The notes under the pieces were generated by a model. That model worked only from the letters and a program-made list of their open reading frames with translations, was not told the origin of the DNA and made no database searches. Below are positions 1-64,000 of a DNA stretch of 64,000 nt, in pieces; within the stretch, counting starts at the first letter, position 1; each line of letters opens with the position of its first letter. Made by a program: the position numbers and the translations under genes. This DNA comes from Trebouxia sp. TZW2008 (lineage: Eukaryota > Chlorophyta > Trebouxiophyceae > Trebouxiales > Trebouxiaceae): contig BDIU01000176.1 of assembly GCA_002118135.1 (NCBI GenBank), positions 186,001-250,000 on the forward strand, in the 5' to 3' direction.

Positions 1-590
1 GGCTGTGCCTGCTGATAGACCATAAGCAAGCAATGAGCATCATCCTGAGCAGGAGGGCAGGGCAGAGAGCAGGACGATGAGCAGGACGAAAAGCAGGGCA
101 GAGGGCAGGGCCAGTCCGTCTGCCTTTGTCGGCACAGCCAGCAGTGCAGCTCCCAATGGGTCTGACCACGCATCAACCAATGTGAAAGGAAGCACAATAC
201 AGTGTGTGCATGCAGGCTGTACCTGCCAACAGCTTGCCAGCAAGCAGTGAGAGGCAAGATGCTGAGCAAGAGGGCAGGGCAGAAGGCAGGTCAAATTTGA
301 CAATTTGCAGCTACTAGGTGGTCAGGGCCATCAGACATTTGCAATGCTGATCAGCTGTCCCTGTGCAGGGTGTGCCTGCTGATGCCCCAGCTGCAAGCAG
401 TCAGCAGCATGCTGAGCAAGAGGGCAGTGCAGAGGGCCGTGCAGAGGGCAGGGCCAGTCTATCTGCCTCTGCTAGCACAGCCAGCAGTGCAACGTCTGAT
501 GGGCCTGACCACCTGGAAGGCACCTGCTGGAGCTTTCAACCACCCAATCTCGTTTTCCACCTTGCTGCAGGAAAGGTGCGTCTTGCCTGA
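1..590 (+). repeat. Tandem duplication over a low-complexity RMC1 exon
   Basis: Two copies of an acidic/Ala-rich segment lie about 363 bp apart (near 5-200 and 365-530), with a shorter third copy near 245-300. Each contains the motif CTGAGCAAGAGGGCAG or a close variant. The copy at 365-530 follows a CAG acceptor and is open on the plus strand. The first copy has an in-frame TAG soon after the same start, so it looks like a decayed exon copy. Confidence 0.6.
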
Positions 591-3500
591 CAACAGCATA
601 GTGGAAAAAACCAAAATGATTACCTTATCCAACAGATGTGCTAGGTGTGTGTGGCCCAAGTCCTATCCTGCCAGGCCAGCTTGTTCTGAGCATCACGATA
701 AGGACGGTTGATGTTCATCTTAGAAAGTCAGACAAGCAAATGCCGTTCTGTATCTTCTCAAGTCAACCCCGAGGTGTTGGGCCCTTACCAAACAGCACGA
801 GTATGACAACATGGCAGATCACAAAGTCAACGGTCTTCCAACTTGCATTTGCCAAGGTTTGTCCTGCTTGGAAGCAATGCCAAAACATGTGCAGAAAAGC
901 TATGAACTGCCAACACTCGTCTTCCCTCTTGCAGCTGGAAATGCTAGTCTTACCTCAGATGTGTCTCAAGCGAGCGTGACTATGCAAGATCCACATTGCT
1001 CAAACTTCGGCGTCTAAACTTGCTCTGCTGTCCAGGTTTGGACATGTGAAGTGGGTATTGCAGCAGTGGCTGCAACTTGCAGTGACTGGCCAGTAATCTT
1101 AGCTTTTCTGCAACGGCGGCAAGCCAGCTTGCACCCCGGCTGTGACATCAAAGCAATGCTGCTCAGCATTGTGAAGGTGAGCCACACTGAACTTTGCTAC
1201 CTCTCACCTTATGTCTGCCAATGCAGACTTTCTGTATCGACAATGACAGTCAGCATTACATACAGGTCATGAAGTAAGATGTCTTGCTGATGTGCCGTGG
1301 TATATGTGTCATCAAACCGAGAAAGGTTGTTGGGGTTTGTATCCTAACACATCCAATCAGACTTGTTGCCTGGCCAGAAGATGTAAACTTTGCTCTTTAT
1401 GTCCTCAGTAATTGCACCTGACAGCTTGGCTTCAAGAGAAGGTCACTGTCAACACTAATGGGTTTGAGCGACTTAAGTTGATCTTTTGGACTTGCACATA
1501 TGTCAAGCTGAACATGCAATGACTAGTGCATCAGCACGCTTGTTCTGTTGCAGAATGCGCTATTGGAGCAACTGAACATGCGTTCCATTCGGCAGATATT
1601 TGACACCGTTGCATCAGGCTATGCAGAAGCCTGCGCGGCCAAAACAGGCAACAGTGGCACGCCTGCTTCGCCAGACAGCAGGGGCAGGGCAGTTAGGCTG
1701 GCTATGCCTGCCCTCAGCCCTCAGGTAGCATCTGCAGCATGTTTGCCAATCTGTCACATCCCAAGCACGGGTCACGTAGGGTCATGCAGTTGCAACAAGA
1801 GGATCATAGCAATCCCATAGTCAATAATAAGCAGTGACTGTAGTCACTGCAACAATGCCATCACACATGAAGGCAGTGACAATGGCGATAAAGATTATGG
1901 CTTTTACAACTGCAAAGCCAGCAGCCATGACCACAGTAGCCAGGTTTGATGATAATGATTGTCATCGTGACATGACCATCAATAAGTACAGGCATATGCA
2001 GCAATGGCTTCAGGAAGGCTTGAGAACCTTTCTGCAACCTTTTGAAGGACGGTCCATGTTCTGCTACACAGAATTGTGAGTTGCTAATGCTGTGCTAGTG
2101 CGTTGCTGCAGGATGTGGAAATGAAAGTGCTGAGGTGGCTTCATTCAGAAGAAGCCACTGGCGTTCAGTACCTTGAGGTGATCACAACACTGCATGCTGT
2201 GACACATGTTTGTTTATCTTGACATGTTGTTACCTATTTACTCTTCTACCTACAGGTTTGCATGCCATGAACATGATCACAAAGTGCTGTGTATCGTCAA
2301 GCAATGTGACATGCTGAGATGCTGTCACAATTGATTTGAAGCTGTGATCAACCAATCAACCAATCAGTGCAAAGCGATTATTTAAGCGATTATATAAATA
2401 AGATAAATCACCAGACAGTGTGCTCATCTCAGATTGTCGATAATGGCGTGCAGGCTGTGATGGAGCTCACTTTCATGGGTCTTTGCTGAAATAGTGCTTG
2501 ACTTGCTGGTAGCTGTGACTGAACTCATTGTTTTTGACTCAACTTGTCCAACTTGACTTTTGTGGATTTTTGATGGCTTTGCACCTGACCTGCAGGCGGC
2601 CGTTGCTGAGTACCTGGGCAGCTGTGGCCGCCATGGGGTAGCAGTGCCTGCTGGCCTGCATTTACTGGCAGTGGACGTGGCGCTGCTGACTGGCCACCCG
2701 CACCAGGTGCATAACACAACGCCAGATTCATCAACTGCCCTTGCATTGCTCATACTAGCAGTCACATATAGCCTTTTTCATGCTCCAGAGTCATACACAA
2801 CACTTCTGATATGTAACTCTGCTGTTCTTTCTTCACTTGCATGTACTGCTTCCATGTGTCGCTTCCATGTGCTTGACTTGCATCTCTTTGGCAATCGCTT
2901 ACTGTGTTTTGTCATTCTGTGCTCAAGGTCTCATACCCTCAAGTTTCCACCTTGACACCTGCTGCACTGCTAATCTCACAATGCCAATTCAGCCACAGAA
3001 GGATCGCAATCAGGCCGGATGCAATAACAGAGACCTGCCTGGGCTCCTCATCATCATGACCTGGATTGCAGGTGGTAGCAATGCTGCAACAGCAGGCAAG
3101 GCGGTGGGACAGTGCTGACCTGGCTTCACATTTGGAGCGTCTAGCTCGCAAGGGAGACCTTCCTCAAGGCTGGCAATTGGCCCTGGATATGTACACCAAG
3201 CTGGGTTTGCATGACAGACAGTGTCAGATGCTACTAAACAAGGTATGTCACTGAAGCAAAGACATCATGTAACAAAGCCTACAACTTTGGGCGCTATAAT
3301 GCAAGCTTTGCAAGTGAATTCAGCTTGGAGGCTGGCAATTTGCCCTTCATGTATACACAACGCTGGGTCTGCATGACAGACGGTGTCAAATGCTGCTGAA
3401 CAAGGTAATGATGCTGTACATATGCTGTACTAGCCCATGACAAGCAATGCGGGCACTGGTTCAATGCATGAGCGCATGATAGCATTGCAGTCACTGTTTA

Positions 3501-4988: not shown

Positions 4989-7488
4989 TCACATGCTGCC
5001 TTTCACCGACACTGCATGGTCCATGATGAAAGCTGGCAGCCCATCACGCATGAAGGGCACAATACTGTCCAGAAAGTGGCTGACTTCAGCAACCCCAAGC
5101 AGCCTTCCTGCCCAGAATATTGGCTGAAACAGGACTTGATAAATGGCTGGCACATGCTTGATGAGCTTCTGTGGCAGCACATAGTCCAGAAGCCAGAAGC
5201 TGTGAGTGCTAGCAAGAACTCCATCAACCACGATGAATCCGCCCTGCATGCACACCCATGCTACTGAGTCATCAGCAAACAAGATGCCTTGCTAGGGAGT
5301 CAACACCCCTTGAATCCTTTCACAATAAACGACATGGACATGTGCTTTGTGACACAGCGTTCAGTTGTGCTCAACACATACGTCAGTGACTAAGTGAGCA
5401 GCATACAGCTGAGAAATTTTGCAACAGAACAGCAGCCAAACATGCGTTACAGGCTTTGTCTCATGTCGATCAAGCAGTGATGGAGTCTGGGTGACATATT
5501 GCAAGCTTGGAGTTGCGCAAAGCTGACAACAGTGTCTGCTTACAGATCACCAAATGTAGTCAGGTCAGCAGTGCTCAGGCATAGCTATGCACAAGCTTGC
5601 TTAAGCAGCATAATTGTGTTCCTTAGGTTCTTGTGTGGTTGGGCAGGCTGCCAGAGCTTACCGCGGTGTATGGATTGAACAAGCCCTGTGCATATACAGT
5701 GGCCTTGCTTGTGACCATTGCTGCCAAAGGTTGTGTCTCATCACCGTTGGCCCTGACCCACAGTGTCTCGCCAACCACCACATCCTTTGCATACTTGTAC
5801 TCCAGAGCTGAGAAGTCCTTTCCAACAGGGAGAAAATGGGTTTTGGTCAGCTTCAAACTCCTGGTTGCATTGCTGGCGCCAACACCCATTGTGATGACCA
5901 AGACAGCGCCCCATGAATCTGTGTCCTTGTGACCAAAGAAGTGCACTTCATCATACAAGGCTTTGCCTTGTGCATTGACGCTAAGGACCCTGTCTCCTGC
6001 CTTGAGAGTGTCCATCGTAGTGATGCCTCTCCCCTCAACAGTCACGTGGGCCTTGCCAGGAAAGCAGTTCTGCAGACACATCAAAGCTCATGCAGACACT
6101 GCGGGTTGCACCAACAGCTGAACTTCTGAGGCTCAAGGCAGGCTGGCTATGCTCACTTGGGATCCATAAGTAAACAGAGACAACAAATGGAAAATCATGC
6201 TGAAAAGGCTCAGTATGCAAGAGCTTTGCTTGCAAAGGCAGTCACTGAGGGGACACGTGCAAACGTGCTTGCAATTCACAGACCATAGAATGTGCTTTAC
6301 GTAACAGCAGCGATGCATTGTTGCAATTGATTGCGCAAGAATGTCCCTAGCTGGGTGTGCTGAGCCTGTCTAGCACACATTTCTTGCATTGTCGTTGCCA
6401 CAAGACTGGCAAGCTCTTAGCTTACCCCATTGCCGTTGCCACTGTTGACAGAGTTGCCACAGGCACAGTTCTCAAGGCAAGCGTTGCAGCCATTCCCCTT
6501 GTTTTGCAATAGATGCCTTCTGGAGCTGCTTCCTCTGAGGCTATTGTACTCTGCTGTGATTCCAAGACCAGTCAGATAGATGTTGCAAGTGTCCACTGGG
6601 GTGTTTGCGACAAGTCCACCATTGACGTAATTGCCACACAAAACCTGTTGCACAGTCAAAATTCAGACCATTCCCAAAAAGCTTCAAGCTTGCTTGGCAC
6701 TTTTGCACGAGCCATGCTGCACTGTGTGTCTGACCCAAGCACACATAAACAGAATCTGCATCTGACGCACATGAATACAAGTACAGCTAGCCAGGCATTT
6801 TGTCCTCTGCAACGCTGCTGCAGCTACAGATGCATCAAATTTTGCCATCGTGATGGCTTGGCAACCCAAATGACACCATGCTCTAGCTCGAAGGACTCAC
6901 CCCAAGGGTCTGTCCTGATGTCGTGTCAGTGAGAGCTGCCTGTACACCGGCTGGAGAAGCTGGAGAGGCGTCACAGCCCCCTATGGCCGTGACCTACAAG
7001 CAACATCAGCACAGCTTGCTTCAGCTACTCGGACCCGGTATCAGACGCCCCGCTCTGACAGCAGCCAAGGCTTGGCGGTGAAGCACCCTGCGCGCTAGCT
7101 TGCACGTTGGCTCAGGCCTCCGGATCATCCTTACCTGAAGATTGCGCATTGCCGTAGTGCCGTAAGCAGTGACAGATGCCGGCAATGTGTGCAATCCGGT
7201 GGAGACCAATTGCTTGCAGGCCTGTTCCACGGACGACGACGGGACCGTGCCCCAGAACTGCACAGCATGCCGACGCGGTTACACGATGCCAGGTACGAGC
7301 GACTCAAGGCGCGTGTAAGCTGTTACCTCGCCAGGAACACCACCGAGAACAGCGGTGGCCAATTGGCTGAAGGAGGTGATGTCGGGCGCGCTGGTGACGG
7401 TGAAATCAATAGTCTGCCCCAGCGCTGATCCAATGCAAGATAACGCTGTCACGGCGCAAAGCCAACGCATGCTTTGCTGACAAGCCAT
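4989..7488 (-). CDS. Secreted protein with Hedgehog-type Hint (Hog) autoprocessing domain
   Basis: Six exons: 7488-7327, 7257-7135, about 6993-6901, 6644-6426, 6069-5662 and 5243-4989. The start is ATG at 7488, giving a hydrophobic signal peptide (MRWLCAVTALSCIGSALG). A roughly 200-residue N-terminal region of unknown fold follows, with the motif RRHLLQ and a Cys/Gly/Asn-rich linker (CNACLENCACGN). The Hint domain opens with NCFPG, whose Cys is the expected self-splicing residue. It then has LKAGDRVLSV, the TKTH motif (TxxH block) and, across the last intron, IVVDGVLAST, very close to the Hedgehog signature VVVDGVLAS. The final 65 residues are hydrophobic with aromatic patches, where animal Hog proteins carry the sterol-recognition region. 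Inference: the Hint part cleaves at Cys and may attach an adduct to the secreted N-terminal part. The N-terminal part is not recognisably a Hedgehog signalling domain. Confidence 0.8.
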
Positions 7489-8350
7489 TGATGCCTGACA
7501 GTGTACTATAATAGTCGACATAGTCAAGCTGCTGCAGCGACAATGAATCAGCGATTGCCAAACCAACAGCACTCAACGCATGCGCTGCGCAGCGTCTCGG
7601 TGGCCGAAACCACATGCATATTCATGGCTCATCGGGGCTGATTCACAGCGACTGAAGCCAACGGTGATTGCAGTAGAATTCCCTCACTTTGTCAGCTTCT
7701 TATTGGAGGAGTCGAAGGCCAATTGCCTGCCAGCATCTGTCCAGTAGCGAAGCGCTCTGAGATGCTGTAATGTCGCTTCAGCTGGCAGCTAGCGCTGCTG
7801 ACCAGCAGAAGCTGCCGTCAAGCCTCAGCCATTGGCCAGCGCTGGTGAAATCATGAGTCGTGAGTGCATCGGGCGCCAGCCGGACGACAATGACAAGCTC
7901 AACGTCAACAAGCTCAACGTCAACAAAGCTCACATACAAATCCTACATTGATGACCTTTCCTGTAAAAAGTCATGTTGGGGATTATCGAGCTGCCAGGCT
8001 GCATTGCTGTCACAGTGCTGAATTTGCTGGTTTGTCGGGTATCAGAACATAACAGTCTTATTTTGTCTTGCTTAGCATATGTCACATGCGGGGTAGCTAT
8101 GTGGTGAATGTTCGCTGAGCAGACCAGAGTTTTGCTGGGGAGATGCCGCAGCACATCTTGCTGACCCTTTGGGAAGTCACCCTGTTCTCAGGATAAGGGG
8201 GTTTGACAGTGGGCGTATCAGGCAATGAAGTCCCGTAGTGTCTAGTGAGCAGACCAGAGCTTTGCTGGAGAGATTCCGTGACACATCTTTGCTGACTTAG
8301 AGAGACGGCTATATTCTCACAATCATGGCTTGCGATAGCGCTAGCATGCA
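7489..8350. other. Intergenic spacer between ENY2 and the Hog-domain gene
   Basis: This should hold the promoter and 5' UTR of the Hog-domain gene and the 3' UTR of ENY2. No convincing gene is seen. The part from 8105 to 8350 is occupied by a duplicated copy of the ENY2 3' end. Confidence 0.5.
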
Positions 8351-8380
8351 TCAGGCAATGAAGTCCCGCAGCTCTGCAAG
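8105..8380 (-). repeat. Tandem duplication of the ENY2 3' end
   Basis: The segment TCAGGCAATGAAGTCCCG, which on the minus strand holds the last ENY2 codons and the TGA, occurs at 8351 and again near 8219. GAGCAGACCAGAG...TTTGCTGG...GAGAT.CCG occurs near 8118 and 8250. The period is about 130 bp. The downstream copy would be read only as 3' UTR. Confidence 0.65.
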
Positions 8381-8970: not shown

Positions 8971-9342
8971 GCCTTACATGTGATCAGTCGTCAATCTTAG
9001 ACGTGTATAGCTGCAACCCAATGCTGTTACGTCACGCGTACGCTGTAAGCTAAAGCTGATAGTGGAGTATGGGCCCGAAAATTGCGGAACGCGATGCTGA
9101 TGCTTGTCTAAGACTCTCTCCATACAGGCGTTACAGGAAGGCGTTAAGGCTCTCGACAGGCATTGTAGCAGGCGTGTGCGTCAAATCGCACAGAACACTT
9201 TGAGGGTACAATGCATTGTGTATGCTTTGACGCACTGTGAACATGACATGGTGCCAGGTCTCCCTATTAGCATCACGACCGGCATATGCAGATCACTAGC
9301 CATCGATCCTTGTGCGCAACGTGAACCGCGTTCGACGGGTGC
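8971..9342. promoter_or_regulatory. Divergent promoter region between ENY2 and the desaturase
   Basis: The 372 bp between the two start codons must contain both 5' UTRs and promoters. No clear TATA box or other known element was recognised. The call rests only on the head-to-head layout. Confidence 0.4.
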
Positions 9343-10185
9343 ATGATCAGGCCAGCAGGGGCTGATCGCGACGAGCAGAATAGCGTGCTTGCTGCTGCGA
9401 ATGCAGATCTCACGGCAGTGAGACATGAGTTTTACTTTCAGCTTCCTATCTGCCTGCAAGCACGCTTGCTACCTTTACTCCAAGATGAACGTGATCTACC
9501 AATACTCTACCTGTTCTTCAACGTGTCAGCCACCGTCTTACCAGCTGCTCTGGCCACATTTGCTCTGCCAGCTTGGTCCAAGGTCTTTGGACCATTATAC
9601 TTTGCTGTAACATACACGCTCTATCTGGAGCGATTCCTGCTTGCTCTACATTACTCTCAACACAGGAAGCTTTTCAAAACAGGTAGCATGACCTGCCCTG
9701 TCTAGTCAGCAATCTGTTATCTGCAATTCTTGCAGCAATAAGCTCATGCGGCGACTGACTTAGGATGTTTGTCAGCAGGCTGCAATTACTTGAACTGGAT
9801 TGCTCCTATGCTGCTGTCACCCTTATTTGGTGTGCCATCAGGCCTATATAGATTTCACCACTGTGTCATGCACCATTCGGTAAGACGCCGCGCTGTGCTG
9901 AACCCTCTCATGTTTTTGTGCGATTGTCAAACACAGATTGTCAGTGCTAATCTGTCTCTGACCCTGATGCAACAATGCTATGTTTCCCATATTCAGGAAA
10001 ACAATTGGTATCCCAAGGACCTAAGCTCCACAGAACCCTACCAGCGTGACCATCTTCCACACTTCCTTATGTGAGTTTCTAGTTTCTATCCCTTTTTGAT
10101 GAAGTAGGCGCTTTGACTGCTGAATCTTGATGCTGTATTGCATATTGTTAGTGTAACGCATCCCTGTGCACATACATAGCGCTTG

Positions 10186-10227
<42 letters not shown>

Positions 10228-11698
10228 GGCTGTGGCTGTTGCTGGCACAACGCAAGCTGGATTTCATGAAGGCATATGACGTGTTGCTGCTGCAGAAACA
10301 CCCTCGTCGCATGATGGTGCGTTTGTGCAATGCAGCTACTGGCTGAGATATTTGATTGGCATTTGGGTGGAGTTGCCAATGTACGCTGTCAAGGCAAAGC
10401 GGTGGCCAATGGTGCTGCAATGCCTTTCATTTGAAGTCGCCTATGTTGGTTTGGTGGCGTTGCTGTGTCAGATGAACCCAGCAGCAACTGTTTGGACTTT
10501 GGTGGTGCCACTGGTGGTCACCTCTTTGGCACTGATGCTTGGCAACTGGTACAGCCTTTGTTTGCATTGTCATTATGTGCGTGATTGCTGTTCTGGCTGG
10601 CGCTGTTTCATGAACCTGTCAGGTGCATGCAGCTGCAATAAGCTGCTTCCAAACAATTCTTCCTCAAATCAAAAGCTCTGCTGAGCTTCTGAAAACATGC
10701 GCATGCACGCATAGTTTCTCCAGATGCTGCCGCCTTACTTCACTCTCCTTTGCCTTGCTGCCAGTTGTTGGTGCTGAGTTGACAGCATATGTCAGCCTCC
10801 CTGCTTGCAGTCATTTTGCTGCTGCAATTACAGCGACGCCGCACTAGTCTCAGGCATGCTGCACTGCGCTCTGACCTGTGCTGCTTGGACTGGACGTCAG
10901 TTGTGCTGCACAACCATACGCCTTCCCTCTGCAACATGGATTGCACTGTGACGTACTGTCTGTGCAGGTCTCAGCACATTTTCGTTGATCCCGACACGCC
11001 AAGTAGCCCTGACGGCATGGCATACAACTGTGTCCAGTTCAGCGGCAATCAGCGCTCCTTCAATGACGGCTACCACGTCATCCATCATCAGAACTCAAGA
11101 TTACACTGGACCCAACTACCGCAGAAGTTTATGGACAACGTGCTGAAAGGGACTGTTTCAGGTTCATGCATAGTTTGTGCATGCAAGTAGTCAAGCTTGC
11201 ATTCTTTCTGCATGCGACTACACAAATCAGCTGCCATACATGCAGATCTTTCATGACAGAGCCAAGCAGCATAATGTCATTCAGCTCCTGCCAGCAGGCG
11301 CTGCATAGGGATGTCTGTGAGGCTGCATATTTGTGCTGTCAGCCTTCCTTGCTTCTTCTTGCTCACCAGCAGCAAACCCGCAAGATACGGGACAGTACAA
11401 ATCACTCGCTCTGCATACATGGCATTACTGTGTGCATCAGTATACATTAACAAGTGCAAGATTGATATGAAAAGAAGGCAGCGTTGCCAGCTTGCCATGC
11501 CAAGACTGCGCATACGCTGTGCCTGCAGGTCTAGTATTCAAGGGCATAGGCTTTTTTGATGTTGGCGTGGCTGTCTTCCTTGGCAGATACTCATATCTCT
11601 CCAAGCATCTGCTCAGATGTGGATCAGTAGCAGCTACAATGTCAGATGGAGACATTGCAAGCATGCTGCAAGACCGACTGAAGCCCATTCATCACTGA
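9343..11698 (+). CDS. Fatty-acid-desaturase-superfamily integral membrane protein
   Basis: About seven exons: 9343-9682, about 9776-9889, 9995-10071, 10334-10548, about 10970-11150, about 11246-11290 and 11529-11698. The ATG is at 9343. The protein has several hydrophobic segments and three histidine clusters in order: HHCVMHHSENNW (joined across an intron), GNWSQHIFVDP (joined across an intron) and GYHVIHHQNSRLHW. These are the di-iron histidine boxes of membrane desaturases and hydroxylases. DLSSTEPYQRDH after the first box resembles a conserved block of algal desaturase-like proteins of unknown substrate. The C-terminal exon has KGIGFFDVGVAVFLGRYSYL, also typical of this subgroup. The last two junctions do not fit simple GT donors in frame; a GC donor near 11297 would give a continuous frame. 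Substrate and regiochemistry cannot be told from sequence. Confidence 0.75.
10188..10227 (+). repeat. (CTG)n microsatellite in a desaturase intron
   Basis: Roughly a dozen CTG units lie in the intron between the exons ending 10071 and starting 10334. Confidence 0.9.
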
Positions 11699-12383: not shown

Positions 12384-15300
12384 CTAAACCTCTTTCTTTT
12401 TAGTCAGCTCAAACATGACAGCTGGCGACCTGTAGATATTGATCAGTGCCCAATAGAGCTCTTCTTCTAGGGCCAGCTCCCCTTGAGCACGAGCAATGTA
12501 GATATCCTGACAAAGAGCAATGAGCCTCTTAGTCGTTGGCAAATCCTCATACATGATACGCATGCGGATGTTGGTTGCAGCCAACCTCAATACTCGTCCA
12601 ATGCCAAAAACGAAAGTGATGTACAGCCCTGTGATACCAAATGACGACAAAGTCTGCCCAAGAAAACCGGTTTGAACTCTCTCAAGAACAGCAACAAGCC
12701 TAGGGCCGTTGTAACCGCCCTGAGTGCATGTGGCCCAGCCCTTCTGGCTGTTGTCAACCGGCTCATCTTTGTCATCCAGGACCTGACACTGAAGCTGCCA
12801 CCACACATCATTCCTGCTGGAATCTGCCAGGGAAATGTTGCAGCCCACATGTTGTGAGTCCCACTGCTCTTGGCTGCTGCCTCTGTTCCATCCTGGGCTT
12901 TGATACCTGCAGGACAGGGCAAAGAGAGCTCAGTTTGGCTGCATTATGTCACACCTTTAAACTATCTTAACTTTGGCCTGTTTCTGATTCGTTTCCAGAT
13001 TGGCATTGGTGTGCAAGTCAAAATCAGATCTGAACTTCAGTTTTGGTGGCAAAGGTGATGCTGTTGCTTGCAAAGGCAAAGGCAAAGGCAAAGGCAAAGG
13101 CAAAGGCAAAGGCAAAGGCAAAGGCAAAGGCAAATGCAAAGGCAAAGTCAAATGCTTGCTTTAGCTGGCAGCTTAAGATGCAGCACAGCTCCTGACGCAT
13201 GCCTAACAAACCTGGCTCAAAGGCTTGGAAAACACTTGCTGTATGAGCCGTTTCTCAGGCGTTGAGGAAGGCAAAGACGAAAGCGCGTCAAGGTGAACCC
13301 TGGCATGCTCAACAAGACAAAGCAGTTGCATACAGCATGCAATATCAACAGATTGATGAGCAACACAGCACAAGCATGCAAGTGCAGCATTGACATAAAG
13401 CTAGCAAGCAGGCGTTTCTACTTGAAGTTTGTCTTTGACGCTGCAAAGCTCGCCACGCAGCTGCCACAACAGGCTGTGAAGGCTCCCACCAACCACAACT
13501 TACAGGCACGCAACTGCAATGAAGGCATCATGCCAGCCAGCAAGAAGTTTTTTTGCCTACTTGAAGTCTGTCTTGACACTGCAAAGGTCGCCCCGCAGCT
13601 GCCAGAACAAGTTATACAAGCCTATGGGTCCGCCTTGCCCTGGATCCTCGCCCTTAGGGTCTGTCATGTTTGCCACTCTCAGGACTGAAGAAGTACGCCT
13701 GCCCTGTAGGTCAGCATCACAGCAAAATCAAGATCAATAAACAGGCCTTTGGGTCCGCCTTGCCCTGGATCCTCACCCTTAGGGTCTTTCATATTTGCCA
13801 CTTTTGAGACTGAAGCATAACACTTACCCTGCAGCAAGGCATCACAAATGAAGCATAAGTAGGAAAACCACACAGTCCTGAACAATGTGGCTTGCTTTTG
13901 ATATTTGGCGCCTGTGGAGTTGTTATATTTGCATGCCATGACTAACAAGGTACATCTGCTTTACATCACACGGACTGTTCCTGAGGTTTGAATTTTTGTT
14001 AAAGATTTACTTCACTTTGCGGAAATCTTCCCAAAACATCAAACAATTCTCACAGGGATGTCATTTGTGCAGAAAATGCAGCAGCGCTTGCTTGAAGATG
14101 TCCGTAAGCTCAGCCCACGTGTACGATGCAAGCTGGAAAGTGGAAGAAAAGTGTGGCTTGGCACACGGCACTGCTGTCACCATTACTGAAATGGTTTGCA
14201 TCATCATTGCTATCGTCAGTGACAGTCAGGGAATGCAGCAGCCCTTGCTTTGAGTATGTCCACGAGCTCAGTGCATGTCAGCAGTGCAAGCTGGCAAGTT
14301 TGTGTGGCTTGGCACACGTCATTGCTGTGACTGTTACTATGATGCTATGCATCGCCATTGTCACTGTCAGTCAGTCAGAGAAATCAGGAGCTCTTACATT
14401 GAGGATGTCCAGCAGCTCAGCGCGTGTCTGCGGTGCAAACTGGAAAAAGGAGGTGGCTTGGCATATATCATTGCTGTTGCCTCATCACTTTTGTGGTCAG
14501 TGACAGCCAGAAAAATCAACAGCTCTAACATTGAGGATGTCCACAAGCTCAGCGCATGTCAGTGGTGCAAGCTGGAGCGTCTGTGTGGCTTGGCATATGT
14601 TGTTGCTGTGATTGTTACTGTGATGGTGATCATCTTCATGTTTGCCACTGTCTTGCTTGTTTGCGTTCCTCATAGCCGGTACTGGTGAATAGGCGGATTT
14701 TGAGCGAGCGAAGCCTCAGCATTCCATCATTGACATAAACAATTGTTGTTGTTGTCATTGCTATTGTCAATGCCAGGCGGAGAAATCAACAGCTCTTACA
14801 TTGAGTATGTCCACAAGCTCAGCCCGTGTCTGTGGTGCAAGCTGGAAGGTTGAGGTGGCTTGGCATATATCATTGCTGTTGCCATTACCGTCACATTTTG
14901 CATCATCATTTTTGTGGTCAGCGACAGCCGGAGAAATCAACAGCTCTTACATTGAGGATGTCCACAAGCTCAGCCCGTGTCTGTGGTGCAAGCTGGAAGG
15001 TTGAGGTGGCTTGGCACATGGGGGACCCATGTGGGCTCAAGGGGGGCGCATTTCTCAGCACAGACCAGCTGAAGCTCATGGCAGCTGATGAGTCATCCAG
15101 TAGGGCTGCCAGGGCCTTTTGGGCGGGAGGGGTCAGCCTCCACAGCCGGTCAGAATCCTGAACTCAGTGTCACACAATCAGACAATGCTGAAGAAGGTTG
15201 ATACAGGTGGCCCCGTGAGGGGTCAGAAGGGGTCCAGGGAGGGTAGATGGGATGCATTGCTTAGCACAGACCAGCTGAAGCTCATGGAAGCTGACGAATC

Positions 15301-35115: not shown

Positions 35116-35173
<58 letters not shown>

Positions 35174-51565: not shown

Positions 51566-52165
51566 TCAGCCTGAAGAAGCAGTGGCCACTGGAGCTGTAG
51601 CTGTCAATCCTGGGAGAGCTTGGGCATAGCCAGTAGTCAGATTGCTGCAAGGCAAGCCTAGCATGCTCAGACTGGTGCAAGCAACTTGGCTGACGCTGAC
51701 CTGCAACACAGTGCAGCTGTTAGACTGCTGCAAGTCAAGCATAGAATGATGATACATGCAACTTGGCTGACCCTCATCTGCAACAAAGTCTAACTGTTGG
51801 ATTGCTGTAAGGCAAACCTAGCACGCTCAAAATGGCAGCACAGTGCAGCTGTTAGATTGCTGCAAGACACTTTAAGCATGCTCCAAGTGGTGTACGCAAT
51901 TTGGCTGTCGCTAACCTGCAACACAATGCAGCTGTAACATTGCTGCAAGGCACGTTAAGTATGTTCACAATGACGCATGCAACTTGGCTATCGCTCACTT
52001 GCAGCAAAATGCAGCTGTCAGATTGCTGCATGACAAGCGTAGAATGACAATGCATGCAACTTGGCTAACGCTGACCTGCATCAAGGTTCACCTGTTAGGT
52101 TGCTGCAGGACACAACTTGGATGCTCAAAATGGTACATGCAACCTGGCTGATGCGCGTTTGCAGC
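51566..52165 (-). repeat. Five to six copies of the SQVACxxLSxxxxxCSNLT exon
   Basis: GCAACTTGGCT(G/A)ACGCTGACCTGCA or a variant occurs near 51680, 51755, 51895, 51980, 52058 and 52138. Minus strand: VSVSQVACTSLSMLGLPCSN (last exon), VSDSQVACVIVNILNVPCSN, TRISQVACTILSIQVVSCSN and shorter relatives, each with an AG acceptor. Confidence 0.7.
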
Positions 52166-55100
52166 AGCGAGTGAGTGAGCGAGCGAGCGAGCGAGCACGT
52201 GAATGAAAGCACGCACAAATAAATCAGCAGGCGTGTGCTTACCGTTGCATTGTATGTAGACCCAGCAGTGGCCAGATTTGGTGCATACACCAACAGGGCC
52301 ACATTCACATCAGCTTGCATGAGCCCACCGTGTTCTGATAGCTTCTTACCAGGCGAGGCAAACACTACTCCAGGCAAGGGAACAATTACCAAGTCTGGTG
52401 TACGGCCTGCTACATTGCTGACCAGGCCGTAGTAGCTGGGTGCATTCACATCTGCATCAAAGTTTCGAAACAATTAGTGTTCACTTAATGCTCTGTCAGA
52501 GGGACCCAATAGAAAGGCACGTACATCAGGAGGCAAATGTGAGAGGTCACAATCAATCCATCAATCACTGAATCAAGCCACGGATCAATCAATCAATCAA
52601 CCAAGCAATGATACAACCGCTCAATGAGTCCATCAGGAAACTTATCAACAAATGGAGGGAGTAAGCAAGCAAGCAAGCACCGCTCAATCACTGTTTTCCC
52701 GTCACAGGAACCCAGGTTGCAAGCAAGTTAGACGTACCAAGAATCCCGTAGCTGCTGTTTTGTGCCAAGGTACGCAAGTAGGTCAAGGCTGCCATGGTCT
52801 GATTGCTGGCTGACAGCCACAAGAGTCCAATGTCATCTGTGGTGAATTGGGCCACACTGCAAGCATTGGGGCACAAGTCAGCATTTGCGGGATGTTGGGG
52901 GGGAGGGTGTGGGGGGAAAGGGGGGGAGAGGGGTTTGCAAGTGAGATGAAAGTGCATCATTCATGCCCATTGCATTGAACTTGCATGCTAGACAGGCTGA
53001 GCAGGCCTAGCTATGTATATACTGCTGCAATTGTACCTGATGTTTTGTTTTGCCAATGCTGTGGATATTGGTGTAGGTGAGATCAGCGTGGCGTTCCCAG
53101 TGATTGGTTGTTGCCCATGCTTTGCAGAAATGATCAATGCTGTGGATGCTGCATTTCCTGAGGTCTGCAAAGCTGTTTGGATTCTGCCAAGAGACTGGTC
53201 CACGAAGTCCAAATTGGCCCTCAAACCAGAGCTGAAGCTTGTTCCATTGTTCAAATATCCAGCATACTACAGACAACACAGTGTCAGCCTTGTACAGGGA
53301 ACTAGATGAATCATTGTCGAGAATCACTTCTGACAGACTTGCATGAAAACGAAGGGTTATGTCTATATGTACTTAGCTGCTGGGTTGCAACAGCTTCCTA
53401 GCGAGCAAATTTGATGAATGCATAATGGACGTCAGCTATGTACACAGGTAATATATGCACAGTTGCAATAGTAAATGCCTGTTGGAGGGGAAGAGAGGGG
53501 GGGGGTGGTGGGCTGAACATCATGCTGACAGAATCGATCTGACACTATCTTTTGGGCCCTTAAAACAGTCTATGTTTATTCATTCATTCATCCACTGACT
53601 GCTTGAGGCAAAAAAGAGCAAGCTTCCCACCTTTTGACCAACAGACAGTGCTTGAAAGTTAAGCCCAAACAGATTTGGCATCTGCATGGCGCATTTCCAG
53701 AGCTGTGCTTCCTGTTAATTTGGATGATGACTGACAGAGACTTATGGGCATGATTGGCAGAAAGGCATAGCAGATTGGATTGATTGGCTGACTACTTGAT
53801 TGACGAGTTGATGGAAAGGTTTGTTGAGGAGGCACAGCAGAGCTTCTCACCTTCTGGCCAACAGATACTGCTTGGAAGTTAAGCCCAAAGAGGTTGGGCA
53901 TCTGCATGGCATAGTTTCCAGAGCTGTGCTTCCCATTGATTTGGTTGATGACTGCTTGGACATGCAACTCATCGTATGCTCTTGCAGCAGTGACATTCTT
54001 GGCCAGATCAATGCCTGTGCCATTGGTGATTGTTGTGGAGGGAATGCCAGTCTGATTATCGCCGCACTGGCATGCAATCTCGGGCGTGTATAAATCCATC
54101 ACGCCATTCCCTTGCTGTCCCTGTAGCACATGGCATATCAGTGAAGAAAGAAGGGAAAAGGAAAGGGTAATTATTATTGCTATTGTGAATCATGGAAAGG
54201 TTTGCCATGACACAGAAGTGTATCTTGACACAGCAATGAGCATACGCACTTGAAACGCGTGAACTCATTCTGCAAGCAGAACAATGACTGTCGTAGAATT
54301 TGTGCTGACCTGTACAATCTCATAGTAGGGACCCTTATCAATCCAAGCAGTCCTTTTACCAGCAGCTGCTGCAACCTGCAATGTTGCCCAACAAAAACAT
54401 TGGCAAGTTCCATGTAACATGAGAGATAGATATGTGTTTGGAATGCTTGAGCCTGACAACACTACTACAATCAACTGCGACATGAAAGGTCACACAGGGT
54501 CATGAAGTTGGCGTCAACATGATCAGCAACTGCAGGGGAGTTCCAACAGCATGAGAACAGCATGCAAACAAGCTGACACGCAAACAAGTTATCACAGACA
54601 TCCCGATACTGGCCAGTACCCTTATAGCCAAGGGCCTGCTTGCAGCGTTCGCTGCAGAACAGAGTGGGACTTGTAGGCAACACACATGGCAAAGAAGCGG
54701 TGTGCAGCAGCTGTGCCATGTCACAACCCAAAAGCGGTACAGTAATCTCTCAATATAAGGACACTCGACATAAGGATGTTCTCAATGTACTGTCAATTGG
54801 ACAGCTGGCACCCAAGCACTGCATTCTAAAATACAGTGATACTTTTGAGTAAGAACAAGCTGATGTAAGCATATGTTTCTTGGTACCCAATGCAGTCGTT
54901 ATATCGAGATATTACTGTATGCTCAGAAGTCCAGAAGGTCAGGACTTACTTGGAACACTGTGTTTGCATGGTTAAAGCGCCAAGCATGCACTGGGTTGCA
55001 GGTGGCATCTAAGGGCAGAGCGCTCTCCTTCACAGCATAAGACCAGTTGGCTGTACCAAATATCATCACTACATGGACATGATCATCAGCTGGCATGAAG

Positions 55101-58100
55101 TTTTGTTGTGGAACAGTGAATACATGAGCGTAGTAAGCCGGGACAAGCAACATTGATGATGTTTCCGAGCATGACTGAGGTTAGAAGTGCAACGGAGGTG
55201 AGGCTGCATGGATTTTAGCACAATCAGCATCCATGAGACTGACCAGAGCATTCATCAGACTCAGAACAGTGGTCATCGTTGTTGAGAGAACCCATGTAAC
55301 AGCGTTCTGTCCCAGAAGTGGCAACAATGTGAGTGTATCACAACCCCGCAACACACGTAGACATTTGATTAGACCAAGCAGTCAAGCTCAGCATGCAGTG
55401 TGGACATTTTAAAATAAGTGCATAAGCTAAGCATACAGCGCAGACATTCATTGCTCTTGACTCAGTGCAGAAGCTGCGCATGCAGCTGCGTGAACTGTCC
55501 TCAATCAAGTTTCGAAGATAAGCATACAGTGCAAACACTCTCTGAAGTTTAGTAGGGGAGCTATGCATGCAGCACAGAAATTTCTTTGAAACAAGTAGAG
55601 CAGCCAAGCAGTGCGTACATTGACAGCAGTCCCGTTGAGGCCTTGTATAGGGAAGTCGGTCTGCAGGGCTGTCACGTTTGTGGCTAAGCCATTGAATGCC
55701 CCAACACCTGGAGCTCCTCCAATGCTGCAATAATAAGCATGGATGGCTCAGATCCCCAGCCAAAAAAAAGCAAAAACAGTTGAAAAAAATCAGGGATTTC
55801 CACACAGTGTTCATTGCAATTGACAGCAGTCCCATTGAGGCCTTGTACAGGAAAATCAGTCTGCAGGGCTGTCACGTTTGTGGCTAAGCCATTGAATGCC
55901 CCAACACCTGAAGCTCCTCCAATGCTGCAACAACAAGCATAAACAGCTTAGATTGCCAACCAGAAATAAGATTTTTTGCGCAAACCAGACCTCTTTGCAA
56001 AGCAATCCTGTTTCTGTCACAAAAAGAACATTGCGCGGATCTTGCAATCTTGTGACAGGGCTGGGGTTTTCACCATTGAGCTGAAGTGATGCCGTAACAA
56101 CAAGCATGGATTGCAAGCGGCAATACAGGATTGTGATGAAATGGTGCTGCGATATAACACACACACACAGCTTCATATATCCCCTTTTTATGAAAAAGTA
56201 AGGGTAGTCAACACCAGGAGCTCCTTCAACGCTGCAACAACAAGCATGGATTGCTCAGTATTCCATGTTGTCACAGAGCTAGGGTACAGAACTTGGACAA
56301 AATGCTGCTGCAAAAACAAACATACACAGCTCAGATCCCCTGTTTATGACAGAGTGAGGGTAGTCAACACCAGGAGCTCCTCCAATGCTGCAACAACAAG
56401 CATATAGAGGCCAGAGCCCTGAACTTTTCTGCAGGAATTCTGCCTGTGTCATGATCTGCAACATTGCTGTTTGATGCAAACTGATGTGCAGGTTGGTCTT
56501 TTTGCCAGTATTGAGTCACAATAGCAGTCTAATAATGTGTCAAAATTCGTTGCAAATCGATGAAGCAAACCCCATGCTAGCAGCCCACCTGAAAGTCTCG
56601 TAATCTTGAGTTTCTGAATACAGACACTCTGTGCCGTTTGGGCCTACAGGGCTGCCAGAGCCTATGTTGGCACAAGATCCAGCTTCGTACAAATTGCGGT
56701 CATAGCTGTCATCTGCAAGCAGCAACCATTGTTTGCTGAGTGTCTGAACTAAGGAAAATGTAGGGGAAAAGAAGAGTCTATGCGTTGGGGCATCATACAG
56801 GGAGTATTTGTCAGCAGAAGCAGCCTGAAGATGTTGCTCTCAAGGCAACAACCAGCTGAAAAGCCTATAGTGTCTTGAGCTTAGGTTGTTTGACCGTTGT
56901 GTTTGCAGCCCAAACTGTCTGCCTTGCACACACTCCCTGCAGAGTCAGTTGCCAGGCTATATGCATCTGCCGGATGCATTTCTATGCAAATGAAACTCAC
57001 GTCAACAGACAGCAACTGCAGCTACGAAATGAGTCCATGTGAGGTGAAAACATGATGAATTAATTGCTTCGGCAGTTGATTGATTTATTGTGTTCTTGAC
57101 TGCTCAGTCACTTCTGGTCATTGTGACAAGACTGCAGCCATGATTACAATGACATGTTCCGCTTAGCAATGGCGTCAAGCAGATCAAAAGACAGTAACGG
57201 TGCTGCAAGAAGACGAGGAAATTCACTACATCCTATAGCGTACCAACAGGCAAAAGATGATGACAACTTGCAACAACACGCAATAGAACACCATTGTCAA
57301 TCACTTTGGAGCATAGCACGTACCGTAATACACGCCCGTCACAGTCACATTGTTGCCGGTTGTGAGCGCCAAAATGCCCGGGAAAGAGTCCGAGGGCCCT
57401 GGCAAATAGGCATTGGGGTAGATGACCCCCTGCTTAGCAAGGCTAGCAAAAGTGCCATTGGGGTTTAGAGCAATGTAGGCACTCAGGTCTGATGAGTGCA
57501 AGCCATCCACACTGCAAGCAGCAGAAATGAAAGTCAGGTGAAATATGGCGTTTGAATCAGTTTCAGAGCGATACAGGCATTCAGGTCTGACAAGTGCAAA
57601 CCGTCTACACTGTAAGCAGCAGCAATAAAGGTCAAAGTTTGGGTATATAATGGTCTTCTGACTTGCTTAGCAAGGCTGGCAAAAGCGCCACTTGGGATTC
57701 AGAGCAATGTCAGCACTCAAGCCTGACGAGTGCAAGCCATCCAAACTGTAAGCAGCAGCAATGAAAGTCTGGTACAGCGTGGTCATTGACTTGTTTAGCA
57801 AGGCTAGCAAAAGTGCCAGTTGGGTTCAGAGCAATATAGGCATGCAAGTCTGATAAGTGCAAGTCATCCATACTATTAGCAGCAGCACCAAATAACATAG
57901 CATAGTCTTTGTATAGCACAGAGTACAGCAGGATTTTTGACTTGAGACAGATCCAACCATCGCGCGTTGCTTTCTGGTTTGCTGTGCTTATTTGCTGAGG
58001 GCTTCACTGGTGAGTTCAGCAGCAAACAAGGCCCTGACTATACAGTTGCCTTGTGAGACTTCCAGCAATTGAATATCAGACCTCCTTGCTGTAGCGCTCA

Positions 58101-60099: not shown

Positions 60100-61081
60100 T
60101 TAGCTGGTCTGCGCTGATCGCAGGCGTGCCGTGACTGCCTTGACCTTGTCTTTCAGTGGCTGGCTGCGCACATCAGCACTCTTTGGCAATGCTCTCCACT
60201 GAGCATCCACTTGCTGTTTCAAGTCTGAGAACTTCTTCCACTTCACCTGCATTGCATCAAAGCTGTAAGGCTCCATGCAATCACAGCTTAGACCAGAGCT
60301 GTAAGGTCTCATGCAACCGCAGCTTTGCACCAACACCTTCGTCACAGCATGCAAGCAAGGCCAGCAAGCAAGCCAGGTTAAAATGACAAAAATACAACCA
60401 TGACTCTCAATAAACGTGCCAATCTGCCATGCATTGCTGAGCAAGTGGCACAGTTTCTGCGGCCAACAGTATGCAAATGAGCTTCAGCATTACACTTCAC
60501 AGTGACAAAGGGCAATGCTGAGAAGAAGATATGCCACAGACATGGCATTGCTGGGGAGTGCCAATTGGGGCACAATGTAGCATGCATGCTGCCGTGACAT
60601 GGAAGCTTGACAATCAAGCAGACCAGCAGAAAGTGTCGGCGTCACTCACTACAGCGGGCAATCAGCAGAGGCAGCAGCAGCAGAAGTCGCAGCGATAGCA
60701 ACAAAAGCAGCAGAATCAGCAGCAGCAGCAGCAGCAGCAGCGGCGGGCACATGATGGTGACGACATGAGCCTTCACGTCTGCAAACAAATATACACGAAA
60801 CAGACAAGGGCAGAGAGTTTAGATGATGGTGACACAGAAAGGCTGAGGCAGTAGCAGCTTGAACTCCCTGGAGTAGGTCTGCTGGCCTGTATCGCTTGCA
60901 ACATAGTACTTCTGGCTTAACACTATTCTCATGAGCAGCAACATCAGCAGCAACAGCAGCAGTAGCAACAGCAGCAGCTGAATTCTCACCAGAATGGGTC
61001 CACTTTCTCATATCAATTGCAGCCTGGTTTCCCCTGCTGTCAAAAAATCTCCACCAGCAGGAAATGTTGTGGAGACACCGT

Positions 61082-61149
<68 letters not shown>

Positions 61150-64000
61150 GCAAAAGAAGCAACAGCGTGAGCTTTCACTCACCGGAACAGTCCCACTGTC
61201 CCACAACACTTGCAGCCCGGTCCCCTCTGCTGTCACACACAATCTCCACCACCAGGAACTGTTGTGGAGAGACCGTCAACAGCAGCAGCAGCAGCAGCAG
61301 TAGCAGCAGCAACAGCATGAGCTTTCACTCACCGAAACAGTCCCAGTGTCCCAATCACTTGCAGCATGTTCTCCTCTGCTGTCGCATGACTACCAGGGAA
61401 TGCTGTGGGAACACCATCAACAGCAGCAGCAACAACAGAAGCAGCAGCAACAGGCAATTCTCACCGGCACAGGTCCACTATCCCATATCACTTGCAGCAT
61501 ATTCTCCTCTGGCGTGACATGGGTCCCGTCAGCAGGGAATGCTGTAGGAACACCATCGACAGACTTGACAGCCATGACCCCGGGCAGAGAGTACTTGAGG
61601 GGGTCACTCTTGGGCAACTTCATGATATCATTCTGGGAGCCATCAGTGTACACGATGTGGGAGAGTTTGGTTGCAAAGGACATGGTGTCCCTGTTGACCC
61701 TTTGCAACAGGCCGCCACCCATGCCAAAAGCAACAGCCTGCATACATTGATTTTGTATGCGAGGCAGCATGGAGAAAAGCTGTGGTTAGAGACGGATTCA
61801 GTGTACAGCTCAGCTGACAGATGACACCTGTGTGAGAGGCGTGTTCGCAATGCCAATCCCTGCAAAAGCTGTGTCAGAGCTTTGCCGGGCATGCAAATTA
61901 GCACTGACAAGGGTGTGTCAGCAGTGAGACCAGCAGGCAGCATGCAGCTGCCTTTTTTGATTGTATCATGCTCTGCAGTCTGGGCTCAGCCTGCAATTGC
62001 AGGCATTAGGCTGGACAGCACATCAATAGTAGCAATCTGACACTAGCATGCCACAATACAGGCAGATACATGGCTGCGCTCTTCCATGCATGACTGTAGT
62101 ATGTAAGCAGTTTGCACAAACCCAAACGCATACGGAGTAACAAAATGACATACAAAGCTTGATCGAGGAGGCATTGGGTACCTGAGCAGAGAAGCCTTTG
62201 GCCATCACAGCTTGCAAGATCTCGTCAAGCTTTCCTATGTTGATACCGTCTCCTTGAATGACCCCGCACCCTCTGGGCACCTTGTATCCCAAAGAGTTTG
62301 TGTCCACACCAAAGACCTTCTCAGCAGCTTCTAGACCCATCAAAACCGCTTCTACAGGGTCACCTGCAAGGCAGCAGCGGCTGCTGAGCTTGGGCAAAAT
62401 GCATGACAGACTGCTGCATTGAGCTAAACAGAAATGCAGTAAGGACAGGGCCAAAGAGGTAGAATGACTAATGGGGCAGTGTCAAGGTTATTGCCTGCTG
62501 AAGTTGTGCAATTGTATGATAGACTGCTGCATTGAGCTGAACAGAAATGCAGTAAGGACAGGGCCAAAAAGTTGGAATGACTAATGGGGCAGTGTCAAGG
62601 TTATCGCCTGCTGAAGTTGTGCAATTGTATGATAGACTGCTGCATTGATGGAAATGATGAGGTGCGTCAAGTAGCACAGGCCTGTAAGGAGTACTGCGCC
62701 CATCGCATTTCCCCTAGCGCTTCAGGACGTGCAGTGCAATCCTAGGATCATGTAGTCCACTTAAGTGATTGAGGCCAGGTGCTTGCTTGATGTAATGCAA
62801 TGTATACATGCCATGCAAGAGGCAGCAAGTAAGGTCGCCATAAAAGTGTTCAGAGCAAGTTGTACATGTTTATCTAGATTTGTTAACACCAAGTCTCACC
62901 TGAATCTGGTCGCAATACAATGAAGCCGCCTTTCCCTACTTGCTTCTGGGCTACTGCTGGCAGGTGCTGTGCCAGAGCCTGCATGCATACAATAGGATGC
63001 TCTAGTACCTTGGAAGTCAATTCAACATTGAATAGAACTGATTTACATGAGCTGCATGTGAGCTAACATTTGGGTTTGCTGGCATGATGATCAATACTGA
63101 CATGGGCATAACACCGGAAGTAAAGAGCTGACTGATCCCGTGAGCGTTTTGGCACGCATTGCACTATACACCAGGCAAGCAATGGCATCTGACATCATGA
63201 AAACATGTAGCTACTGGCATATGTGGATATGCTGCTGTGGCACTGTAAGACTGGAGTGTTGTCAAGCATGCGCCACGACGATGGACTCAGAGGCTCAAAG
63301 TCAAGCTCTGCAAGTGAAAGGTTGAAAACGAAGCAACCACAAAATCAAGGCATTGGCAATAAGGTTTTAATGCAAGACAGCACCTGCACATACCCTTGTC
63401 AGATTTAAGACCCAGCACTGCTCTCACCTCAGCATAGTCATAGCTGTCCATGACGCAAGCAAACAGGCCTGACCCGAAGTTTTCTATCATGTTCTCCATG
63501 GCTTCTCGCTCAGTGTGCCAGGCTGTCATGACACTGTGCTCTGTTGCAGGTATACTCATTCCCACAGGCTCCCCGTCATTCAGGTGAAACTGCATCAGAA
63601 TGGCAGGATCAAGGAGCCTTCCCATCTTACAAGCAAATTGACTCGGTACTCTGCGCCAAGGCTAAACCACAGCCCAATAGCAGCGCAAAGGTATGTGTGT
63701 TGCTCACCTTGCTGACAACATCAGCTAAACTGCACTGTACTAATCAGCCTTGTGTGCATCATGTCATGCAAAGCACGTGGAACTTTCAAGTCCAAGGCAC
63801 ACCACGTACTGGGCATCACGCATGCACCTGTGCATCACAAGCAGCTGACAATGTATCTGTCCTTTCAAAAGTTTAGCAGATGCGCAACTCCCCCCAGCAC
63901 GCTTTGCTCCTGACATCATGATGTACAGAAGCACATGAAAGCGGCAAACTCTGGGTCCATCATAGAGGAGTTGATTCACTCACCTGTGCATAGTAGGCAG
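60100..64000 (-). CDS. NAMPT: Nicotinamide phosphoribosyltransferase (5' partial at window edge)
   Basis: Exons: 64000-63984 (ends AYYAQ), 63593-63431, 62980-62899, 62364-62183, 61739-61463 and 60248-60100 (TAA stop). Family motifs in order: SIPATEHSVMTAW (the His matches the catalytic His of human NAMPT), FACVMDSYDY, GGFIVLRPDS joined to GDP (phosphoribosyl/diphosphate site), VIQGDGINI and AFGMGGGLLQRV. The enzyme makes nicotinamide mononucleotide from nicotinamide and PRPP, the rate-limiting step of the two-step NAD salvage route; it is cytosolic in characterised relatives. The last exon joins in phase 0 to give DSGPVPVKWKKFSDL. The C-terminal 50 residues (WRALPKSADVRSQPLKDKV) are less conserved. 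The N-terminal half lies outside the window. The intron before the last exon contains three decayed copies of the preceding exon's end. Confidence 0.88.
60660..60745 (+). repeat. (AGC)n trinucleotide tract
   Basis: AGCAGCAGCAG with interruptions in the last NAMPT intron. The Ala/Ser/Gln frames are artefacts. Confidence 0.85.
60985..61535 (-). repeat. NAMPT: Four copies of a NAMPT exon end with (CAG)n tracts
   Basis: TCTCACCGGCACAG..CCACT.TCCCA..TCACTTGCAGC, a variable block and GGAA(T/C)TGTGG.A.ACCGTC recur at about 60990, 61180, 61325 and 61465 (spacings about 190, 145, 140). Each is followed by CAG repeats (61082-61150, 61280-61318, 61419-61452). The copy at 61465-61535 is the end of the supported exon (LQVIWDSGPVP). 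Confidence 0.8.
62400..62655 (+). repeat. Near-identical 113-bp intronic tandem duplication
   Basis: GACTGCTGCATTGAGCT(A/G)AAC and the following 90 bases (to TTGTGCAATTGTATGATA) occur at 62409 and 62522 with about four differences, and a third start at 62635. It lies in a NAMPT intron and contains no exon. Confidence 0.9.

Follow-up and report, generated by a model that had tools for sequence, protein, structure and literature searches.

In the green alga Trebouxia sp. TZW2008, short segments of DNA stand duplicated in direct orientation beside themselves, both in a window of 64,000 nucleotides (the whole stretch analyzed here: assembly GCA_002118135.1, contig BDIU01000176.1, positions 186,001 to 250,000 of the forward strand) and across the sampled genome. 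In the window, they occur in the genes of a Piezo channel, a phosphodiesterase, and NAMPT, among other places, and several straddle an exon edge. The original prediction, made from the letters of the window, tied the duplications to exons and named the creation of introns and of mutually exclusive exons as precedents. The process is more probably a genome-wide and untargeted one, in which short direct duplications are filtered by selection, and the copies arising at exon edges are absorbed by the introns and decay.

Occurrence in the Window and in the Genome

Self-comparison of the window by BLASTN (E ≤ 1e-5) yields 72 direct pairs, 71 of which have an offset of less than 2 kb. When direct pairs with an offset of 40–1000 bp and a length of at least 40 are merged into clusters, the window contains 34 clusters of local direct duplications, fewer than the "more than 40" duplications first announced, although the count is higher when pairs are taken. 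Independently of BLAST, Tandem Repeats Finder (TRF) identifies arrays in the window with periods of 83–188 bp. Both of the stretches that had been described as duplicated within introns only are present, at 24804–25058 (82%) and at 62381–62648 (114-bp unit, 92%).

The wider sample is composed of the window, 18 arbitrary 10-kb stretches (20 were requested, and two contigs were too short), and 13 gene loci, 307.6 kb in total; the genome searched comprises 68.5 Mb in 527 contigs, and the assembly is described as 69.9 Mb at 526x (PMC7526373). This sample contains 114 clusters, equivalent to 3.7 per 10 kb or approximately one per 2.7 kb. Per 10 kb, the window has 5.3 clusters, the arbitrary stretches have 3.2, and the loci of chaperonin and HSP70 genes have 3.6. 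Near direct duplications are present in 15 of the 18 arbitrary stretches, so the repeats are not peculiar to the window; confinement to it was the outcome that had been named as counting against a pervasive process. Order-1 Markov shuffles, one for each of 24 ten-kb pieces, contain no direct pair, and 50 kb of E. coli K-12, the sole and bacterial control genome, contains no near direct pair. Inverted pairs nearer than 1 kb number only three in the 307.6 kb. The local duplications are thus confirmed as real and genome-wide in Trebouxia, and the pervasiveness originally proposed is borne out; if the sample is typical, the whole genome would hold about 22,000–25,000 clusters.

A literature search covering titles and abstract openings, among the matches listed and with most subscription journals outside its scope, returned no such duplications for Trebouxia or related algae. 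The word "tandem" does not occur in the main text of two Trebouxia genome papers, one of which gives 5.64% of unclassified repeats; these may include some of the duplications described here.

Offsets, Divergence, and Junctions

The copy-to-copy offset is 225 bp or less in 109 of the 114 clusters, lies at 226–300 bp in three, and is larger in two. A size limit, as originally suggested, is therefore found. The lengths had been expected to cluster near 130–190 bp; the offsets instead form a broad distribution over approximately 60–225 bp that ends in a ceiling. Because longer units are easier to see, this upper limit is not made by detection, whereas the lower limit partly is. The offsets modulo 3 are divided into 36, 30, and 38 among 104 clusters, without any tie to the reading frame.

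The copies differ from one another by approximately 5–35%, and the median identity between them is 82%. The range from near-identical to barely recognizable copies reported at first is supported insofar as many ages are represented; near-identical copies are rare, with an identity of at least 90% in five of the 114 clusters and at least 95% in one. That young pairs are scarce could reflect either a slowing of the process or the collapse of identical copies by the assembly.

The term "tandem" applies strictly to fewer than half of the clusters, since BLAST places the pair head-to-tail in 46 of 104, and the members of the other 58 are separated by a spacer of more than 10 bp. Several of the spaced pairs have abrupt limits. 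Among 36 spaced pairs tested (identity of at least 80%), the spacer resembles the flank (P ≤ 0.02) in six, and the simulated power to recognize the decayed remainder of a unit in a spacer ranges from 0.25 to 1.0 with identity, length, and indel rate. With six of 36 in its favor, the idea that all spacers are decayed remainders of the unit was set aside; some of the spacers, though perhaps not all, can be accounted for by decay or by a subsequent deletion. In nine clean two-copy head-to-tail joints, a small sample, the junction lies within −5 to +10 bp in six, and hence no long homology exists at these joints; the other three overlap by 21–32 bp, and more than two copies are possible there.

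Relation of the Duplications to Exons

The relation to exons was determined in 15 genes. Exons of eight chaperonin genes and five HSP70 genes are defined by profile matches with a precision of about 10 bp at their ends, those of NAMPT by a transcript-derived protein, and those of the phosphodiesterase by predicted Trebouxia orthologues, the ends in the latter two genes being set by eye at splice sites. The gene sample represents eight of the 12 contigs with chaperonin matches and five of the ten with HSP70 matches; two of these HSP70 contigs (C150 and C165) were already known for doubled segments before selection. The exon coordinates of the Aldedh, proteasome, tRNA synthetase, and ABC families stand outside every count.

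An exon is touched by 22 of the 30 clusters in these genes, compared with 19.4 under random placement (P 0.20). The statement that most duplications span an exon is numerically true, and yet it describes no more than chance, so that a special association with exons is not supported. Conversely, none of the 30 clusters has an exon under both of its members, compared with 9.8 expected (0 of 2,000 permutations); the profile failed to detect some of the chaperonin exons (L030, L034, and L035), such that the "intron-only" class is an upper bound and a both-exon case could hide among these. The same contrast appears in the first ten genes, where 13 of 20 clusters touch an exon (13.2 by random rotation) and none of the 20 has exon sequence beneath each of its two members, where rotation gives 7.0 (0 of 2,000). 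A copy lying wholly within an exon is rarer there than by chance, with two of 20 against 5.9 expected (P 0.034). In the HSP70 set, both-exon clusters are again absent (0 of 10 against 2.6 expected, P 0.038).

The 22 exon-touching clusters affect 19 exons out of 114 (12 of 76 in the first ten genes alone), and in three exons (L031, L038, and L039) both edges are duplicated. The acceptor and donor sides are balanced, at 12 to 10 in the 15 genes. A bias toward the acceptor side, suggested by all seven of the counted Piezo clusters, was rejected on the strength of this balance; with Piezo added, P is 0.14. Untargeted duplication filtered by selection fits both the 22 of 30 clusters that touch an exon and the absence of any both-exon cluster among the 30; the duplication process looks blind to exons, and selection does not.

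Decay of the Extra Exon Copies

Where an array lies at the edge of an exon, its outermost copy is continuous with the rest of that exon, and the others lie in the intron, each with a piece of the exon and usually one splice site. Copy decay was assessed in 27 exon-edge clusters (22 from the 15 genes and five from Piezo), with L029 and L038 8922–9088 falling below the alignment threshold. Among 43 aligned extra exon pieces, 35 contain a frameshifting indel, nine an in-frame stop, and 36 either of these, with the reservations that local alignments overrunning the end of a copy may add frameshift calls and that copies of the same array are not independent. The differences at codon positions 1, 2, and 3 of the extra copies amount to 14.5, 11.8, and 24.3%, respectively, as would be expected if one copy changed neutrally (12–14% at every position) and about equal synonymous change were added by the working copy. 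Furthermore, a whole exon is copied in only one of the 22 exon-touching clusters (55819–55970, by BLAST extents), and this copy lacks a terminal GT. The extra copies are accordingly read as mostly dead pieces.

The treatment of such pieces by splicing is illustrated by NAMPT, the gene with which the window closes on the right. The nearest relatives of its product are the protein P0001 (531 aa, 99%) and that of Trebouxia sp. C0004 (81%). P0001 probably derives from spliced RNA, since its longest contig, of 2,257 nt, holds the whole NAMPT frame and the gene exceeds 5 kb. This protein joins the exon end at 61465 to the exon start at 60246, and the copies in between are excluded. Meanwhile, the phosphodiesterase gene has its best matches in Trebouxia C0004, C0006, and C0010, and the exon that is doubled here is present as a single copy in the predicted orthologues of all three.

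Origin of the Duplications and Alternative Explanations

A sequence of events can be proposed for these duplications. Short stretches of the nuclear genome would be copied beside themselves in direct orientation, at an offset of approximately 60–225 bp and without aiming at exons, and selection would eliminate the events that place both copies in coding sequence. Where an event straddles an exon edge, the outermost copy alone would stay joined to the remainder of the exon, and the others would be absorbed by the intron, remain unused in the mRNA, and decay like intron sequence, with growth of the intron as the net outcome. Exon definition would allow splicing to ignore the half-exons. The duplication process itself is probably break repair; the lesion may be a break with staggered ends that is filled in and rejoined, generating a small tandem duplication, or else a short-range template switch may be involved. 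This proposal retains the pervasive process, the many copy ages, and the size limit of the original interpretation, and departs from its exon association, its AG|GT introns, and its mutually exclusive exons.

Several observations weigh against this account of untargeted duplication and decay. Simple fill-in does not predict the 58 of 104 clusters that are spaced, nor the 30 of 36 tested spacers in which no evident resemblance to a flank is seen. The HSP70 set touches an exon in nine of ten clusters against 6.2 expected (P 0.045), in a set where two of the five loci were chosen when their doubled segments were already known. Seven of the 43 extra copies have no frame break, and a small number of copies that still code for protein might be concealed by the excess at third positions. 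The skipping of copies is seen in a single transcript-derived protein (P0001 for NAMPT). In addition, the first 20 exon-edge clusters (13 from the ten genes and seven from Piezo) keep the spare splice dinucleotide in 33 of 38 cases, compared with 165 of 268 for other AG or GT dinucleotides of those alignments (P 0.002; P 0.025 with one copy per cluster). This excess, unexpected under neutral decay, is not repeated in the independent HSP70 set, with eight of 11 against 52 of 72, and conservation of the spare splice sites is not claimed.

The spaced pairs bear most directly on the origin of the copies. With the same fate of the copies, their source could be short-range template switching or the capture of neighboring DNA during break repair by strand invasion, leaving the original sequence as the spacer; the 58 spaced clusters, several with abrupt limits, are as such a process would leave them, and the proximal duplications of Pace et al., with a mean copy of 162 bp, likewise include introns, partial exons, and splice sites (PMC2671141). 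In those, however, donor and acceptor are up to 5 kb apart, against 109 of 114 offsets within 225 bp here, and 46 of 104 clusters are head-to-tail, so that this origin is possible and on the whole rather doubtful. A duplication directed at the edges of exons, for instance by way of intermediates of transcription or splicing, would agree with the 22 of 30 clusters that touch an exon and with the HSP70 genes in particular, and is nevertheless unlikely: random placement gives nearly as many, the arbitrary stretches, which contain genes and other DNA in shares unknown, reach 3.2 clusters per 10 kb against 3.6 in the gene loci, and the offsets have no preference for frame or side.

The two outcomes that the original prediction had in mind can be judged on the copies themselves. 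Functional alternative or mutually exclusive exons would be suggested by the seven unbroken copies, which include one in 33189–33305 and the whole-exon copy at 55819–55970, and by the spare splice sites that seem conserved in the first set. With 36 of 43 copies broken, one whole exon in 22 and that one without a donor, splice-site retention not repeated, and the NAMPT protein skipping its copies, such a function is very improbable as a general explanation. The creation of new introns by duplication of an exonic AG|GT segment is a known mechanism (PMC3443670, PMC4974935), and it predicts members of a pair over both flanking exons; none of the 30 clusters is of this kind, against 9.8 by chance, and the mechanism deserves hardly any credence here. 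As for an assembly artefact or a mobile element, the window has one N gap (41561–41620), and near-identical pairs are nearly absent, as if collapsed; yet copies that are approximately 5–35% different are not one locus read twice. A mobile element or introner was likewise rejected, since dispersed units would be expected, and 71 of the 72 pairs are less than 2 kb apart, few are inverted, and each of three units searched genome-wide matches only its own array. Either explanation, artefact or mobile element, is barely credible.

Duplicated Features and Genes of the Window

All duplicated features assigned to the three genes are on the minus strand. In NAMPT, decayed copies of the 3′ end of exon 61465–61734, with its donor and a CTG run, occupy the following intron at 60934–61562. 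The CTG/CAG runs reach about 24 units and are expanded within individual exon-end copies (61082–61152 and 60663–61317). The head-to-tail array at 62381–62648 lies wholly in a NAMPT intron, contains about 2.4 copies of its 114-bp unit, and has no other match in the genome search. A further copy of the 3′ end and donor, that of exon 63984–64208, is present at 63825–64000, and this cluster extends to 64065 in L027. Visual inspection reveals a divergent copy of the first exon of NAMPT about 1.66 kb upstream (L027 3220–3140 versus 1560–1480, minus strand), far beyond 225 bp.

Exon edges are duplicated in the phosphodiesterase gene as well. The 5′ edge and acceptor of exon 57326–57513 have three extra copies at 57431–57887, and exon 55619–55726 has acceptor-side extra copies at 55619–56404, one of which is the whole-exon copy without a donor. 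The 3′ edge and donor of exon 53851–54118 are copied at 53617–53954, and an array of acceptor-edge copies of exon 51593–51700 is located at 51636–52166.

The long gene encodes a Piezo channel. A match to the Piezo cap domain (E 2.3e-45) lies in the last of its large exons, and the Piezo-domain proteins P0241 and P0242 match 17 and 19 stretches, respectively, at 12.4–41.3 kb. Acceptor edges are duplicated at 35417–35753 (exon ~35362–35559), with a unit that is unique to this place in the genome search; at 32993–33305 (exon ~32858–33094), where the copy has no frame break in its aligned exon portion; at 28851–29059 (exon ~28789–28890); and at 18173–18465 (exon ~18015–18284). Multiple extra acceptor-edge copies are present at 32173–32589 (two, 140-bp unit), 21994–22508 (three, 152-bp unit), and 19496–20212 (at least three, 167-bp unit, again unique in the genome search). 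Two adjoining multi-copy arrays (14070–15021 and 15024–16049, together 14070–16049) surround the Piezo exon near 14950–15235, and a duplication at 37391–37638 overlaps a weak Piezo exon match (37395–37472).

The remaining duplications listed have no strand assigned. The spaced duplication at 24804–25058 has no recognized exon and an offset of 181. The cluster at 41506–41982 (89%, offset 204) crosses the gap of 60 N at 41561–41620. Arrays are located at 43395–43776 (165-bp offset, 82%) and 46950–47631 (140- and 172-bp offsets, 81%). Spaced duplications are found at 3167–3407, outside the Piezo gene (85%, offset 162), and at 8116–8296, where the spacer is still flank-like (86%, offset 130).

Beyond the window, a six-frame search for HSP70 matches the same profile segment two to three times side by side on L037 (C150) and L038 (C165); on C150 these are the profile segments 131–205, 131–168, and 132–167, such that duplications are visible directly in the family search. 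The window itself contains a 68-bp element at 1319–1387 (plus strand) that recurs at no fewer than 31 other places in the genome, with 80–93% identity and on both strands; a short GTTGGGG..CCCCAAC-like stem is present in the seven copies read. Scans of the window for tRNAs and Rfam families gave no match. A Hint module of the hedgehog/intein autoprocessing type (PF01079, E 1.1e-19) lies at 5623–6084 on the minus strand. On the plus strand, a gene at 9325–11190 has a weak match to fatty-acid desaturases (E 1.9e-4, below the cut-off) and contains motifs that we take to be histidine-box-like.

Implications for Intron Growth and Genome Annotation

A broader meaning can be offered tentatively. Trebouxia may have a constitutively high rate of a single mutation, the direct duplication of up to approximately 225 bp, which would be a main source of new intron sequence and would leave about one in six exons with a duplicated edge; the ceiling would then reflect a fixed physical length, such as the longest distance over which nicks on opposite strands still come apart, an Okazaki fragment, or a nucleosome, and the spare splice sites might in places be used. 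A nucleosome- or replication-linked mechanism had been suspected from the outset, and the size limit alone does not discriminate between the two. If the ceiling holds in long-read genomes, its cause, whether nicks, lagging-strand fragments, or nucleosomes, becomes directly testable in an alga.

The genome offers a large natural collection of the scars of small duplications. In a pair at an exon edge, one member is under coding constraint, which allows such scars to be dated, and their breakpoints to be mapped, better than neutral DNA would permit. The arrays demonstrate a simple route of intron growth and constitute a natural experiment on the way in which splicing distinguishes the true edge of an exon from similar copies 60–225 bp away. 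They also carry a warning for annotation, as gene models of Trebouxia may take dead pieces of exons for exons.

Similarities to Known Duplication and Intron-Gain Events

The kind of mutation observed here is known; what is unusual is its density, the ceiling of approximately 225 bp, and the number of exons that bear a duplicated edge (19 of 114). In cells of mice and humans, small tandem duplications are generated when 3′ overhangs are filled in and the ends are then joined; in the terms of Schimmel et al. (2021), they are short (<100 bp) insertions (PMC8355091). As described there, these duplications share with the Trebouxia copies a direct orientation, a local and short extent, near-blunt joints (in the clean two-copy arrays here), and independence of gene features. 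However, the Trebouxia offsets extend to 225 bp, over half of the clusters are spaced, and one cluster occurs per approximately 2.7 kb. Plant work on adjacent nicks and natural rice insertions is reportedly that of Vaughn and Bennetzen 2014 and Schiml et al. 2016, cited by Schimmel et al.

From the transposon-derived part of the human genome, Pace et al. (2009) report 824 duplications in close linkage, with a mean of 162 bp and a median of 147, and ascribe them to strand-annealing repair; the donors include introns, parts of exons, and a small number of complete exons, and two copied exons lack a significant sign of constraint (PMC2671141). The linked copies of about 150 bp, the spacers, the partial exons with splice sites, and the lack of constraint on copied exons have their counterparts in Trebouxia, but the described number of 824 and distances of up to 5 kb differ from 3.7 clusters per 10 kb that nearly all lie within 225 bp.

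Tandem exon duplication can yield mutually exclusive exons. Exon sequence is likewise copied side by side in Trebouxia, whereas almost every copy there is incomplete, most are broken, and one of the two splice sites is missing from them. In a potato gene, an intron is described as gained by duplication across an exon–intron boundary (PMC4974935), and the AG|GT model of intron creation is reviewed in PMC3443670. The geometry of a duplication across such a boundary is common to these cases and Trebouxia; in contrast, a new intron results there, while the extra copy in Trebouxia is absorbed by an existing intron, and both-exon pairs number none in 30. The Trebouxia case therefore shares its type of mutation with the fill-in duplications and those of Pace et al., and shares the geometry, not the outcome, of intron gain in potato.

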